Shown piece after piece: positions 4,280-8,986 of a stretch of 64,000 bases of DNA. Source of the DNA: Solibacteraceae bacterium (GTDB taxonomy: Bacteria; Acidobacteriota; Terriglobia; Bryobacterales; Bryobacteraceae); the NCBI GenBank assembly GCA_026984795.1, contig JALSRK010000031.1, forward strand, positions 124,001 to 188,000, given 5' to 3'. Every line of letters begins with the position of its first letter. Positions within the stretch are counted from its first letter, which is position 1. The position numbers were made by a program, and so were the translations under genes. The notes under the pieces were generated by a model, which worked only from the letters and a program-made list of their open reading frames with translations, was not told the DNA's origin and made no database searches.

Positions 4280-5011
4280 ATGGTCAGGCGGTTCCTGCGC
4301 ATTGCGCTCATCACGGATCCGGTGGCGGCGGTCCTGGTGCCGCTGATGGGGATCACCAGCGGCGTGGCGGACCTGCTCGACCGACGGGGGCACTGGGGAC
4401 ACTGGGTGGCGGCCTTCTGGTCCCGGGCGCTGCTGCGGGTGGCCGGGGTGGAACTGGAGATCTCCGGCGCGGAAAAGGTTCCCCGGCGACGGCCGGTAGT
4501 CTTTGCGGCGAATCACCGGAGCATGATCGACATCCCGGTACTCATGAGCGCGCTTCCGGTCTCGCACCGCTACCTGGCCAAGCGCTCGCTCGTCTGGATG
4601 CCGTTCATCGGCTGGCACCTGGTGCTGGGCGGGCACGTGCTGGTTCACCGGGCGACGAAGGCCGGGGCGGTGAAGACCTTCTCGGCGGCGCTCGAGCGGC
4701 TGAAAGAAGGGGTATCGGTGGTGGTCTTCGCCGAGGGCGGGCGGTCGGCCGGCCGGCTACGCAGCTTCAAACAGGGGGCTGCGCGACTGGCTCTGCGGGC
4801 CGGCGTGCCGGTGGTCCCGGTGGGCATCACCGGATCGGCTCCCGTGCTGCCCAAGGGCTCCTGCCACGTGCGCCCGGGCCATATACGCGTCCGGATGGGG
4901 GAGCCGATCGAGACACAGGGAATGACGAAGGCCGACGCCGAGCCCCTGACGCGCAGGATGGAGGCGGCGGTGGCGGCGTTGATTGCGGAGCCGGCCCCGG
5001 AGGCGGCATAA
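4280..5011 (+). CDS. plsC: 1-acyl-sn-glycerol-3-phosphate acyltransferase (PlsC family)
   Basis: 243 residues. It transfers an acyl chain to lysophosphatidate to give phosphatidate at the inner membrane. The catalytic H-x4-D motif is NHRSMID (residues 78-84), and the glycerophosphate-binding block is FAEGGRS (about 150-156) where many homologues have FPEGTRS. The hydrophobic N-terminus (about residues 5-35) can anchor it in the membrane. The ATG at 4280 was chosen because the frame upstream lies inside folC in another reading frame. Co-directional with folC. Confidence 0.9.
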   Translation: MVRRFLRIALITDPVAAVLVPLMGITSGVADLLDRRGHWGHWVAAFWSRALLRVAGVELEISGAEKVPRRRPVVFAANHRSMIDIPVLMSALPVSHRYLAKRSLVWMPFIGWHLVLGGHVLVHRATKAGAVKTFSAALERLKEGVSVVVFAEGGRSAGRLRSFKQGAARLALRAGVPVVPVGITGSAPVLPKGSCHVRPGHIRVRMGEPIETQGMTKADAEPLTRRMEAAVAALIAEPAPEAA

Positions 5012-5078
5012 TCTGAGAACACTCAGGGGGCGCCGGCCGGCAGGGGAGCACCGGCGGCGGCGGTCCTGGAGATTTCCG

Positions 5079-6155
5079 ATGAAGGTTGCCATAGCAGCGC
5101 TGCTCTGCGTGTCCGCGGCGGCGGCCCAGACGATGTCGATCGAAGAGTACGAGCCGCGATCGACCCTGGTGGTGCCGCAGCACATCGTCAAGCGCGCCCG
5201 CTACCCGTTCATCGACGTGCACAACCACCAGCGGCGCCTCGGCACGCGGGAGGACGTCGAGCGGCTGATCCGCGCCATGGATGGGATCAACATGCGGGCG
5301 ATGGTGAACCTGAGCGGCGGCTCCGGCGAGCGGCTGAAACAGGGCATCGCGCTGCTGGGTCCCTACTACGGCAGGCGCATCGTGACCTTCGCCAACATCA
5401 GCTTCCAGGGCATCGACGAGCCGGGATACGGCGAGCGCATCGCCCGCCGGTTCGAGGCCGACGTCCGCAACGGGGCCCGGGGCCTGAAGCTGTTCAAGAA
5501 CTTCGGCATGACGGTGAAGGACAGCCGGGGGCGGCGCGTGCCGGTGGACGACCCGCGCTTCGACAAGCTGTTCGAGACCTGCGCCCGGCTGGGCGTCCCG
5601 GTGCTGATCCACACCGCCGAGCCGAAGCCCCTGTTCGAGCCGATGGACAAGTACAACGAACGCTGGCTCGAGCTGAAATGGTACCCGCACCGCGCCCGCC
5701 CGCCGGACCGGTACCCGCCGTGGGAGACCCTGATCGCCGAGCAGCACCGGCTCTTCGCCCGGCACCCCAAGACGATCTTCATCAACGCCCACTTGGGCTG
5801 GCTCGGCGGCGACCTGGCCCGGCTGGGCAAGCTCCTCGACCGGCTGCCGAACGTCTACACCGAGTTCGGCGCGGTGATCGAGGAGCTGGGGCGGCAACCG
5901 CGCTTCGCCCGGCAGTTCTTCATCCGCTACCAGGACCGCATCCTCTTCGGCAAGGACACCTGGCGCCCGGAAGAGTACGCCACCTACTTCCGGGTGCTCG
6001 AGACCGCCGACGAGTACTTCCCCCACGACCGAAAGCACCACGGGCTCTGGCGGCTCTACGGCATGGACCTGCCCGACGAGGTACTCAAGAAGGTCTACTA
6101 CGAGAACGCCCTGCGCATCATCCCCGGCATCGAACGGGAGGGGGAGGGCCGGTGA
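5079..6155 (+). CDS. exported amidohydrolase-2 family metal-dependent hydrolase
   Basis: 358 residues with a signal peptide (MKVAIAALLCVSAAAAQ). The mature protein is a TIM-barrel amidohydrolase of the Amidohydro_2 type: the H-x-H pair is FIDVHNH (H48, H50), then GLKLFKNFG, LIHTAEP, INAHLGW and the late Asp in LFGKDTW. These match the metal ligands of ACMSD/gamma-resorcylate-decarboxylase-like proteins, although exported acidobacterial and planctomycete members have unknown substrates. The start at 5079 is preceded by a GGAG site. Nothing nearby fixes its substrate. Confidence 0.85.
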   Translation: MKVAIAALLCVSAAAAQTMSIEEYEPRSTLVVPQHIVKRARYPFIDVHNHQRRLGTREDVERLIRAMDGINMRAMVNLSGGSGERLKQGIALLGPYYGRRIVTFANISFQGIDEPGYGERIARRFEADVRNGARGLKLFKNFGMTVKDSRGRRVPVDDPRFDKLFETCARLGVPVLIHTAEPKPLFEPMDKYNERWLELKWYPHRARPPDRYPPWETLIAEQHRLFARHPKTIFINAHLGWLGGDLARLGKLLDRLPNVYTEFGAVIEELGRQPRFARQFFIRYQDRILFGKDTWRPEEYATYFRVLETADEYFPHDRKHHGLWRLYGMDLPDEVLKKVYYENALRIIPGIEREGEGR

Positions 6156-6221
6156 GTCCCTTCCGGGGGCGCCGCGTCACGAAGCGGCCGGGCCTGCATC
6201 TATCATGAAGGGGGAACCTCT

Positions 6222-6386
6222 GTGGAGATTGTCTGGATCATCCTGATCGCCGCCGTCTGGCTTCTGCTCACCCGCTTCGGCTATGGTTGAGGGCCGGCCT
6301 GGCCCGGCCGTGAGCCGGGCGGCTCGTGCCACTGGACGCCGGAGAAGCGGGAGGGCGAAGCGCCGGAAGACGAGCGCAAGAAGTGA
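6222..6386 (+). CDS. candidate small membrane selenoprotein (in-frame TGA at codon 23)
   Basis: A GTG start at 6222 has a strong ribosome site (AAGGGGG, seven bases upstream). The first 22 codons encode one hydrophobic helix, MEIVWIILIAAVWLLLTRF, then GYG. Codon 23 is TGA (6288-6290). The same frame then stays open for 31 more codons with G/C-rich third positions, encoding a Gly/Pro stretch, GSCHWTP and a charged tail EKREGEAPEDERKK, and stops at TGA 6384-6386, one base before the end of the convergent aminotransferase gene. The shape (one membrane helix, Gly-rich Cys-containing loop, hydrophilic tail) resembles small membrane proteins with Cys after the helix, so the TGA may encode selenocysteine. 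Alternatives: a true 22-residue peptide, a nonsense mutation, or a base error. No sel genes are in the window. Confidence 0.5.
6309..6328 (+). promoter_or_regulatory. candidate bacterial SECIS stem-loop
   Basis: An 8-bp stem (6309-6316 with 6321-6328, including two G-U pairs) closes a four-base loop GGGC (6317-6320). The loop begins 27 bases after the TGA at 6288-6290 and starts with G, which fits the known bacterial SECIS pattern (short stem-loop in the coding sequence shortly after UGA, G early in the apical loop). A second perfect 6-bp hairpin lies at 6292-6309 but sits very close to the TGA. In such GC-rich DNA hairpins arise by chance, so this supports the selenoprotein idea only weakly. 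Confidence 0.35.
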
Positions 6387-6387
6387 C

Positions 6388-7563
6388 TCACCCGCCGGCG
6401 AAGAAGTTCCCCAGGCGCTCGACGGCCTCTTCGAGGATGGAGCGTTCCGAGGCGTAGCAGATCCGCAGCGAACCCTCGCCCCCGGCGCCGAAGGCCACTC
6501 CGGGGGCCAGACCCACCTTCGTTTCGAGCAGGATTCTCTTGGCCAGGGCGAAGGAGTCCGCGCACCCTTCGATCTTCAGGAACAGGTAGAAGGCCCCGTC
6601 GGGCTGGGGCACCTGGACGCCGGGCATCCGGTTGAACCGGTCCACGCAGAAGTCACGGTTCTCGCGCAGCCGGGCCACCATTTCGCGGACGAACGGCTCG
6701 CCGTCGCGCAGGGCGGTCTCGCCGGCCTTCTGAGTGAAACTCGGCGCATGGGAGACGACGAACTCGTTGAGCTGCGCCGCCCTCTCGGCCAGGTCCCGGC
6801 GGGCGGCGATCCAGCCGAGCCGCCAGCCGGTCATGCAGTAGCTCTTCGAGAACGACTGGACGACGATGACGGCGTCCCCACGGGCAGCCTGGCGCAGGAT
6901 CGACGGGGCCGGGCCGCCAGGGTCCGGACTCCGGTAGTAGATCCGCTCGTAGACCTCGTCGGCCAGCAGCCATAGCCCGTGGCGGCGGGCGAAATCGAGC
7001 AGACCCGCCTGTTCCTCTTCGGTGGCCACCCACCCGAGGGGGTTCGACGGCGAGGTGTAGACGAGCAGCCGGGTCCGGGGCGTGACGGCGGCCTCCAGGG
7101 CGTCGAAATCCACCACGTAGCGGCCGCCGGAGAGCGGGTGAGGGATCTCCACCGGCGTGGCGTTCGCCAGCCGCACGATGGCCGAGGCGTTGGGCCAGGC
7201 CGGGGTGAGCAGGATCGCTTCGTCGCCCGGGTCGAGGGTGCAGCGGATGGCCAGATGCAGCGCCTGGACGCCGGAGGCGGTGACGACGATCTCGGTCTCC
7301 GGATCGAGCTCCACCCCATGAAGCCGGCGGCAGTGGGAGGCGATCGCCCGGCGCGTCGAAGGCAGCCCGGCGTTCTCGGTGTAGAAGGTGAAACCGTCTC
7401 GCATCGCCTGGATGGCCGCCCGCTTGATGAACTCCGGCGTCGGGACGTTCGATTCCCCGAAATAGAGGCGCAACACCCCGTCCATACTCATGGCGATGTC
7501 GGCCAGCTCGCGGATGCGGGAGCGGGGCACGGCGGCGGCCGACGGAGAGACTCGGGCAGGCAC
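6388..7563 (-). CDS. class I/II pyridoxal-phosphate aminotransferase
   Basis: 391 residues from a GTG at 7563, five bases past the purF stop. Fold-type I aspartate-aminotransferase-like enzyme: LYFGESNVPTPEFI at the N-terminus, TASGVQALHLAI, the SPSNPLGW block, LLADEVYERI with the Asp that contacts the cofactor, SFSKSYCMTGWRLGW with the PLP lysine, and a late Arg in GSLRICYA that binds the substrate carboxylate. It has about the usual length for the family. Co-transcription with purQ-purL-purF is likely from spacing. The amino-acid substrate cannot be assigned; aspartate/aromatic or alanine-type activity are all possible. Confidence 0.88.
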   Translation of the reverse strand: MPARVSPSAAAVPRSRIRELADIAMSMDGVLRLYFGESNVPTPEFIKRAAIQAMRDGFTFYTENAGLPSTRRAIASHCRRLHGVELDPETEIVVTASGVQALHLAIRCTLDPGDEAILLTPAWPNASAIVRLANATPVEIPHPLSGGRYVVDFDALEAAVTPRTRLLVYTSPSNPLGWVATEEEQAGLLDFARRHGLWLLADEVYERIYYRSPDPGGPAPSILRQAARGDAVIVVQSFSKSYCMTGWRLGWIAARRDLAERAAQLNEFVVSHAPSFTQKAGETALRDGEPFVREMVARLRENRDFCVDRFNRMPGVQVPQPDGAFYLFLKIEGCADSFALAKRILLETKVGLAPGVAFGAGGEGSLRICYASERSILEEAVERLGNFFAGG

Positions 7564-7567
7564 GGGA

Positions 7568-8986
7568 CTAAATGCGCCGGAGCTTGGGCTCGGAGAGTTC
7601 GTCGATGTTGACCAATTCCGTAGGGTAGTTGCCGGTGTAGCAGGCGTAGCAGTGTTCCTGCTTTTCGTCGTCGTCCACCGCTTTGCGCAGGGCCGAGAGC
7701 GAGAGGTAGCCCAGGCTGTCGGCCTCGACGTAGCGGCAGATGTCCTCAACGGAGTTGTTGGCGGCGATCAGCTCGCGCTTGCGCGGGGTATCGACGCCGT
7801 AGTAGCAGGGCGAAACCGTAGGCGGGCAGGAGATGCGCAGGTGAACCTCCTTAGCGCCGGCCCCGCGCACCATGCGGACGATCTTGCGGCTGGTGGTGCC
7901 CCGGACGATGGAGTCGTCCACCAGGACCACGCGCTTGCCGGCCAGCAGCTCCCGCACCGGGTTCAGCTTCAGGCGCACGCCGAAGTCGCGGATCGCCTGG
8001 GACGGCTCGATGAAGGTCCGGCCCACGTAGTGGTTGCGGATCAGCGCCTGGCGGAAGGGGATGCCGGACTCGTCGGCGTAACCCAGCGCCGCCGGCACAC
8101 CGGAATCCGGCACCGGGACCACGATGTCGGCGTCCACCGGGTGCTCGAGCGCCAGCAGCCGGCCCATCAGCTCGCGCGAGAGCTGGACGGACTTGCCGAA
8201 GACGATGGAATCCGGCCGCGAGAAGTAGACGTGCTCGAAGACGCAGTGGGCTCGCGGCTTGGGCACCGTGTAGCGCTGCCGGACCATGCCCTCGGGGCCG
8301 ACGATCACCATCTCGCCGGGCTCCACTTCGTTCATGTAGACGGCGCCGATCAGGTCGAAGGCGCAGGTCTCCGAGGCGAAGCAGTAGCACATCTTGCCGC
8401 CGGAAAGCTCCATCAGCCCCATCGACATCGGCCGGAAGCCGTAGGGGTCGCGGGCGACGATGATGCGGTCCCGCGCCAGCAAGACCAGCGAGAAGGCGCC
8501 GTCCAACTGCAACAGCGCCTCGCGCAAAGCTCCGGCGATGTTGCGCTCCCGGGAGTGGGCGATCAGGTGGAGGATCACCTCGGTGTCGCTCGAGGCCTGG
8601 AAGATAGAGCCGTCCTGCTCCAGTTCCCGCCGCACCTCGGAAGCGTTCGTGATGTTGCCGTTGTGGGCCACGGCGATGGGGCCCTTGTTGCACATCACGT
8701 AGAAGGGCTGGGCGTTGCCGAGCACCGTGTCGCCGGCGGTGGAATAGCGGGTGTGCCCGATGGCCATGTGCCCGGGCAGCCGGCCGACGACTTCCGGCGT
8801 GAAGATGTCCGCCACCAGCCCCATGGCCTTGTGGCAGCGGATCTCCCGGCCGTCGGAGGTGGCGATGCCGGCGCTCTCCTGGCCCCGGTGCTGGAGCGCG
8901 TGCAGGCTCAGGTAGGCGAGGTTGGCCGCCTCAGGATGGCCGTGAATGGCGACGACGCCGCATTCTTCACGAAACCCGTCGAACAT
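7568..8986 (-). CDS. purF: amidophosphoribosyltransferase
   Basis: 472 residues. It catalyses the first committed step of purine synthesis, PRPP + glutamine to phosphoribosylamine. The start MFDGFREEC leaves an eight-residue propeptide before the nucleophilic Cys, as in the Bacillus-type enzyme. The class II amidotransferase domain (to about residue 230) is followed by a phosphoribosyltransferase domain with the PRPP motif [14 protein letters not shown]. Cysteines in ETCAFD, PCYYG and CYACYTG match the positions that bind the 4Fe-4S cluster of the oxygen-sensitive B. subtilis enzyme. The frame upstream to 9082 lacks family similarity. Confidence 0.96.

Follow-up and report, generated by a model that had tools for sequence, protein, structure and literature searches.

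The segment at positions 6222-6386 of the window, the whole 64,000-nucleotide stretch of Solibacteraceae bacterium DNA analysed here, is very probably a selenoprotein gene, in which an in-frame TGA is predicted to be read as selenocysteine (Sec). The first-pass annotation had put forward this segment as a selenoprotein candidate, a proposal that is now supported: the runnable tests that it named came out in its favour. The best explanation, and a highly probable one, is a micro-selenoprotein whose UGA would be decoded through a bacterial SECIS (bSECIS) hairpin. The window was placed in a 5.2-Mb assembly (G000), and its features are as follows.

4983-6155, plus strand: amidohydrolase gene (Pfam PF04909), upstream, context only.
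6208-6214, plus strand: AAGGGGG, ribosome-site-like, 7 nt before the GTG, by direct reading.
6222-6386, plus strand: predicted selenoprotein gene of 54 residues, with a GTG start, a Sec TGA and a second TGA as stop, from the translation, the TGA homologues and the coding test.
6222-6287, plus strand: N-terminal membrane helix and R-F-G-Y-G linker; residues 2-20 are helical in the model, and the orientation is probably N-out/C-in.
6288-6290, plus strand: in-frame TGA at codon 23, predicted to be read as Sec; TGA in 47 of 48 accepted genomes and TGT in the other.
6302-6320, plus strand: bacterial SECIS-like hairpin with a 7-bp stem, whose loop (CGUGA) begins 18 nt behind the TGA, within the limits given in PMC13188914.
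6327-6329, plus strand: codon for the C-terminal Cys (residue 36), the putative redox partner of Sec; homologous tails also have Cys.
6388-7749, minus strand: class I/II aminotransferase gene (Pfam PF00155), convergent, context only.

Direct translation gives VEIVWIILIAAVWLLLTRFGYG before the TGA at 6288-6290 and GPAWPGREPGGSCHWTPEKREGEAPEDERKK between it and the second TGA at 6384-6386, which ends one base before the aminotransferase stop codon at 6388. Read directly, the coordinates agree with the original description of a GTG start (6222-6224) with a ribosome site (AAGGGGG, 7 nt upstream) and of a TGA as codon 23, followed by 31 codons to a second TGA beside the convergent gene. The GSCHW segment described in the tail is present, with its Cys codon at 6327-6329, and the third-codon-position excess persists behind the TGA, as had been claimed. 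A separate observation concerns the region upstream of the gene, where TATCAT at 6201-6206 is -10-like and has a similar counterpart in relatives. In 22 of 44 members a TANNNT begins 14-24 nt ahead of the start codon, whereas 500 base shuffles give 4.0 such members on average (maximum 12); the range was picked after inspection of the data. This element could possibly reflect a promoter of the gene's own and a very short leader.

Members of the family were accepted in 48 of 237 Bryobacteraceae genomes by profile search and locus reading. They are one-helix membrane proteins of about 30-54 residues with the consensus ..RF-GGG-U-GPxRPGRGPGxSC behind the helix. The codon behind the helix, rechecked singly, is TGA in 47 of the 48 genomes, the window's own included, and TGT (Cys) in the remaining one, G410. 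The homologue comparison proposed earlier thus found relatives that keep both the TGA at the corresponding codon and the tail, and one with Cys. The reservation that chance could not be excluded falls away, since the same arrangement, with TGA at that codon, is seen in each of the 47 genomes. A chance open frame, or an assembly error in one genome, would fit the shortness of the frame, the GC-rich DNA and the weak fold signal of the single sequence; the presence of the same codon in 47 genomes refutes it and leaves it a vanishingly small probability.

The family was assembled through several searches. When 61 relatives were searched with the product (C for Sec), eight further genomes gave matches (E 2.7e-9 to 4.2e-5), all of which run across a TGA; reading of the loci showed that this TGA occupies the corresponding codon, after the helix and Gly-rich turn. 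Some match at E <= 1 was found in all 61; 16 loci, including the window's own, were read and 12 kept, with three weaker matches also proving to be members and L013, L014, L015, L020 and L023 rejected or left aside. A search with the aligned family matched 46 of the 237 genomes at E <= 1e-3, and a 45-row profile matched 73 at E <= 0.05, from which G429 and G858 were added after reading. Besides the 48 accepted genomes among these 73, 10 of the other 25 were read: four share a 38-residue frame and six were rejected. A frame in G030 with TAG at the Sec place (E 6.5e-4) was rejected because it belongs to DUF5670 (E 1.2e-11). The aminotransferase was found in 108 of 150 genomes in a neighbourhood search, and a regex scan of its neighbourhoods (30 loci and 40 of 78 other genomes with the aminotransferase) yielded one then-new member, L154; four regex matches (L110, L122, L237:2003 and L275) were removed on visual inspection ahead of the tail counts.

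No convincing member was found outside Bryobacteraceae among the best 18 candidates per genome scored in a class sample of 399 genomes and a phylum sample of 396. In the class sample, 34 of 399 genomes matched at E <= 0.01 among those best 18; new loci with sequence were read, five listed matches without a locus were left out, and L083, L084 and L086-L094 were rejected on reading (L092 belongs to the 38-residue-frame group). The phylum sample gave the window's own genome and one weak match among the best 18 candidates per genome. This weak match, in G684 (L166; E 7.8e-4), has no stop within a 640-residue open frame and was taken as chance. Because scoring covered the best 18 candidates per genome in both samples and the best 30-31 in the family searches of 237 genomes, divergent members may be missed. 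A scan of public genomes with a DNA pattern derived from the family returned 14 contigs, of which 12 were taken as members already found; the Micromonospora and Thermoleophilia contigs lack a helix, as does the single viral contig matched. Plasmids and phages searched for the family gave no match.

Two groups of loci lie at the margins of the family. In four genomes of genus g25 (L286-L289) a frame of 38 residues is conserved, which has a helix and SGGG and ends in DSGGGRRGRVPVV. It contains neither Sec nor Cys, scores weakly and was left out of the counts; among these genomes, G136, G284 and G874 have weak SelB-family scores, and G367 is absent among the matches listed. The frame is possibly a Sec-less remnant of the family, or unrelated. 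G430 carries a second gene copy (L252:1934-2026, minus strand) about 4 kb from the first, with the tail GPTCKPGS and no start codon in the stretch examined; this copy may be decaying, or may start further upstream.

The sequence behind the TGA varies in a manner that looks protein-coding. Among 45 distinct TGA sequences, the G430 second copy included, the first stop after the Sec codon is TGA in 21, TAG in 13 and TAA in 10, with one frame open in the stretch read; one of the 21 terminal TGAs is the second TGA of G269, which is taken as Sec. The internal codon is always TGA, while the terminal stops vary. The tail contains Cys 4 to 13 residues behind Sec in 43 of the 45; the two tails lacking it are L012 and L085, which has TGA there. 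Both members added later (G429 and G858) also have a tail Cys. This Cys is encoded by TGC (37) or TGT (5), and all six Ser codons are used across the family for the Ser that precedes it. In 106 pairs of similar tails, which are not phylogenetically independent and for which no p-value is claimed, differences at codon positions 1, 2 and 3 number 274, 161 and 424, and the synonymous share of changed codons is 0.44 in frame and 0.27 and 0.16 in the other frames.

These patterns bear on the possibility that the TGA is a true stop, ending a 22-residue membrane peptide that is followed by a conserved RNA hairpin acting as a terminator or regulatory element. The head alone is plausible as a membrane peptide, and the hairpin is indeed conserved and GC-rich. 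However, a true stop does not account for frame-specific substitutions, a kept Cys and varied Ser and Cys codons behind the TGA, nor for an internal codon that is TGA only where the final stops vary. The Cys orthologue in G410 reads straight through, and no T run follows the window hairpin. A true stop is accordingly very improbable, and Sec insertion at codon 23 is the reading that is retained.

The stem-loop described in the first-pass annotation is present, but the distance of 27 bases given for it was wrong, as the loop begins 18 nt after the TGA. Its stem pairs 6302-6308 with 6314-6320 around the loop at 6309-6313 (CGUGA). According to the review PMC13188914, the bSECIS model comprises a loop of 3-9 nt, an upper stem of 4-16 bp, a G in the first two loop positions, a distance of 16-37 nt from the UGA and an energy of -7.5 or lower. 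The window hairpin, at -14.4 kcal/mol and a spacing of 18, agrees with this model. In a hairpin scan written for this analysis with those limits (PMC13188914) and with a spacing of 15 admitted, 43 of 47 sequences conform (42 of 47 strictly) and four do not. The SECIS check suggested at the outset was therefore passed by the window and by 43 of 47 family sequences. Of the 43, 25 have a spacing of 19 and 15 have one of 16-18. Controls passed at lower rates. For 3000 TGAs picked at random from these loci the rate is 9%, as it is for 318 TGAs that end long frames; when the tails themselves are recoded synonymously (2820 recodings), it is 35%.

Taken alone, the window hairpin does not differ significantly from its dinucleotide shuffles (z -1.61, with 15 of 200 folding as well); this fold signal is weak, and the case rests on the family. 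With synonymous shuffles of the whole fold the shift was only modest (mean z -0.68, with 33 of 45 below 0), and the hairpin-specific test was made after them. Two members deviate in the tail: G862 (GPGRSCR) and G430 (GPTCKPGR) have their Cys elsewhere and the stop codon inside the hairpin. Their hairpins still lie 19 and 22 nt behind the TGA and the Cys is kept, so the RNA signal and the protein tail are apparently maintained separately. A search of Rfam over window positions 5000-8000 gave one match, far below the cut-off.

The genome of the window encodes components of the machinery for Sec insertion, as the check for selA, selB and selC showed: SelA (420 bits), SelB (373 bits) and a tRNA-Sec (79 bits, anticodon TCA) are all present. 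Two weaker SelA-family matches elsewhere in this genome (L002, 47.5 bits; L003, 27.1 bits) are perhaps other PLP enzymes. No clear second selenoprotein emerged when about 60 kb around selA, selB and the tRNA-Sec gene were scanned crudely for frames. SelB is present at E <= 1e-80 in 41 of the 47 TGA carriers, and SelA in the six that remain. SelB is above the cut-off in 187 of the 237 family genomes, so its co-occurrence with the gene is uninformative, indicating permissive conditions and not association; as proof of a selenoprotein it was dropped. With the best 150 candidates per genome scored, the best tRNA-Sec-like match in the TGA carriers G010, G017 and G025 is a tRNA-Ser, and tRNA-Sec was not found in G862. 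Neither G010 (about 50 contigs, 96% complete) nor G025 (about 60 contigs, 92% complete) is heavily fragmented. SelA is present in G010, G025 and G862, the first two of which also have SelB, and G017 has SelB and no SelA match. That no tRNA-Sec was recognised in these four carriers may reflect search misses or assembly gaps.

Readthrough of the UGA with Trp or another near-cognate amino acid, in place of Sec, could draw on the four carriers without a recognisable tRNA-Sec among the best 150 candidates per genome. A hairpin behind a stop codon can also promote readthrough, and the conserved stem-loop counts to that extent for this alternative. Against it, the hairpin has the spacing and loop of a bSECIS element, all 47 TGA carriers have SelB (41, E <= 1e-80) or SelA (six), and the sole orthologue without TGA has Cys, the usual substitute for Sec. 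Decoding of this kind is about as improbable as a true stop, and insertion of Sec by SelB and tRNA-Sec remains the preferred reading.

Replacement of Sec by Cys where the Sec machinery is absent is a classical signature of selenoproteins. The frame in G410, VEILWVVLVLVGVLWLARWGGFG-C-ACSACPPEP.., starts with GTG and has TGT in place of the Sec codon. The gene order around it, folC-plsC-ORF-<purF-<purL, with a gap of 48 bp to the upstream gene, is that of the window minus the amidohydrolase and the aminotransferase. In this genome, which is 91% complete, SelA was not found at E <= 1e-20 and SelB was not found at 1e-40; of three tRNA-Sec-like matches, the best two are tRNA-Ser and the third is below the cut-off. 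G410 is thus a Cys orthologue in a genome without detected SelA or SelB, a single case in a genome 91% complete. A converse exchange is seen in G269 (L085), where TGA stands at the Cys place, 12 codons behind the first TGA, and is followed by GKK and TAG; the GKK ending resembles the basic tails of some relatives. This second TGA has its own 7-bp hairpin with the loop GGC, starting 18 nt behind it, at -13.7 kcal/mol. Of the 21 second TGAs in the family, two besides that of G269 pass the hairpin test, at -7.9 and -7.7. The G269 product is predicted to contain two Sec residues.

The AlphaFold model has a helix at residues 2-20, and its tail blocks have a mean pLDDT of 48-54. Across 45 aligned members, the Cys form included, one basic residue precedes the helix and 167 follow it. 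By the positive-inside rule, this distribution places the Sec tail in the cytoplasm, and an N-out/C-in orientation is probable. The proposed protein would have an acidic N-terminus outside the cell, one membrane helix and then a cytoplasmic Gly-rich turn, with Sec as residue 23 and a short tail, rich in Pro, Gly and Arg, that contains Cys. SelB and tRNA-Sec would decode the UGA via the bSECIS hairpin inside the coding sequence of the tail. The placement of Sec and Cys on a flexible Gly/Pro loop suggests that an attacking Sec and a resolving Cys could form an internal, reversible selenenylsulfide. The protein may then act in thiol/selenol redox chemistry on the surface of the membrane, where it could perhaps exchange electrons with a partner in the membrane. 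The odds for such a Sec/Cys redox pair are judged to be even.

The main other function, binding of soft metals (Hg, Cu, Cd, Zn) via Sec and Cys without redox chemistry, is considered rather unlikely. In its favour, the Cys form in G410 contains G-C-A-C-S-A-C, which resembles the clusters of metal sites, and one species has TGA replacing the Cys. However, the distance between Sec and Cys ranges from 4 to 13 residues, and an informal look at the listed neighbour clusters turned up no recognisable metal-resistance gene. Frames resembling folC, plsC and amidohydrolase occur in 11, 11 and 10 of 41 neighbourhoods; the amidohydrolase homologues lie upstream in the same direction in those 10, the window's own among them. 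A BrkB-like gene lies upstream in six of the 41 (Pfam check in one), and a gene recognised by eye as Fe-alcohol-dehydrogenase-like occurs in four. No gene is common to all 41, and this variable neighbourhood points to no reaction and names no partner. A redox pair is the favoured function.

The family has no close counterpart in the databases searched. The window product has no Pfam match, and neither a PDB profile search nor PHROGs returned any. Searches of NCBIfam 20.0 (12, then 45 aligned members) and Pfam-A (45) gave weak matches only, the best at E 0.0036. That match, seen in four of the 45 members, is to YoaK-type proteins (NF033821), which are likewise very short membrane proteins, whereas the window's own member has no match; it likely reflects helix composition only. 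YoaK is not known to carry a tail with Sec or Cys. Table 1 of PMC13188914 comprises 119 bacterial selenoprotein families and subfamilies. In common with the present family, they have a bSECIS directly following the Sec-UGA, the Sec machinery and a Cys homologue, but none has the helix-GGGU-Pro/Gly/Arg-Cys layout, as judged by the names and motifs in that table. In the literature searched, which is thin on subscription journals, no report was recognised as describing this family, the available part of PMC12013277 included. It is apparently an undescribed family of bacterial selenoproteins, set apart from those of PMC13188914 by the names and motifs in its table.

A probable selenoprotein family is thereby added from raw sequence. 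Ordinary gene finding halts at UGA and loses a short tail, which suggests that small selenoproteins are under-counted. With one helix, one Sec and one Cys, the family would offer a minimal system for membrane Sec chemistry. Variants of it occur naturally as well: one with Cys in place of Sec, one predicted to carry two Sec residues, and others in which the Cys has moved and the hairpin spans the stop codon.

The eukaryotic selenoproteins SelS and SelK are also membrane proteins with Sec in a C-terminal tail, and SelK shares with this family a single helix and a GGUG setting. Both use the eukaryotic SECIS, a difference from the present family, and none of the 45 members matches the SelS or SelK Pfam families at E <= 0.1; the resemblance is taken as one of analogy only, although a distant homology is conceivable. 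In SelS, a protein of 189 residues, a selenosulfide between Sec188 and Cys174 has been proposed, a spacing of 14 that is close to the common 13 of this family (PMC3628699). The full picture, given slightly less than an even chance, is of membrane-anchored micro-selenoproteins, among the smallest known, with a Sec...Cys switch (Sec...Sec in one species) on the cytoplasmic side of the membrane and a hairpin that lies within the Pro-Gly-Arg tail, partly dictates its sequence and co-evolved with it. If true, it would make these proteins a bacterial functional parallel to SelS and SelK.
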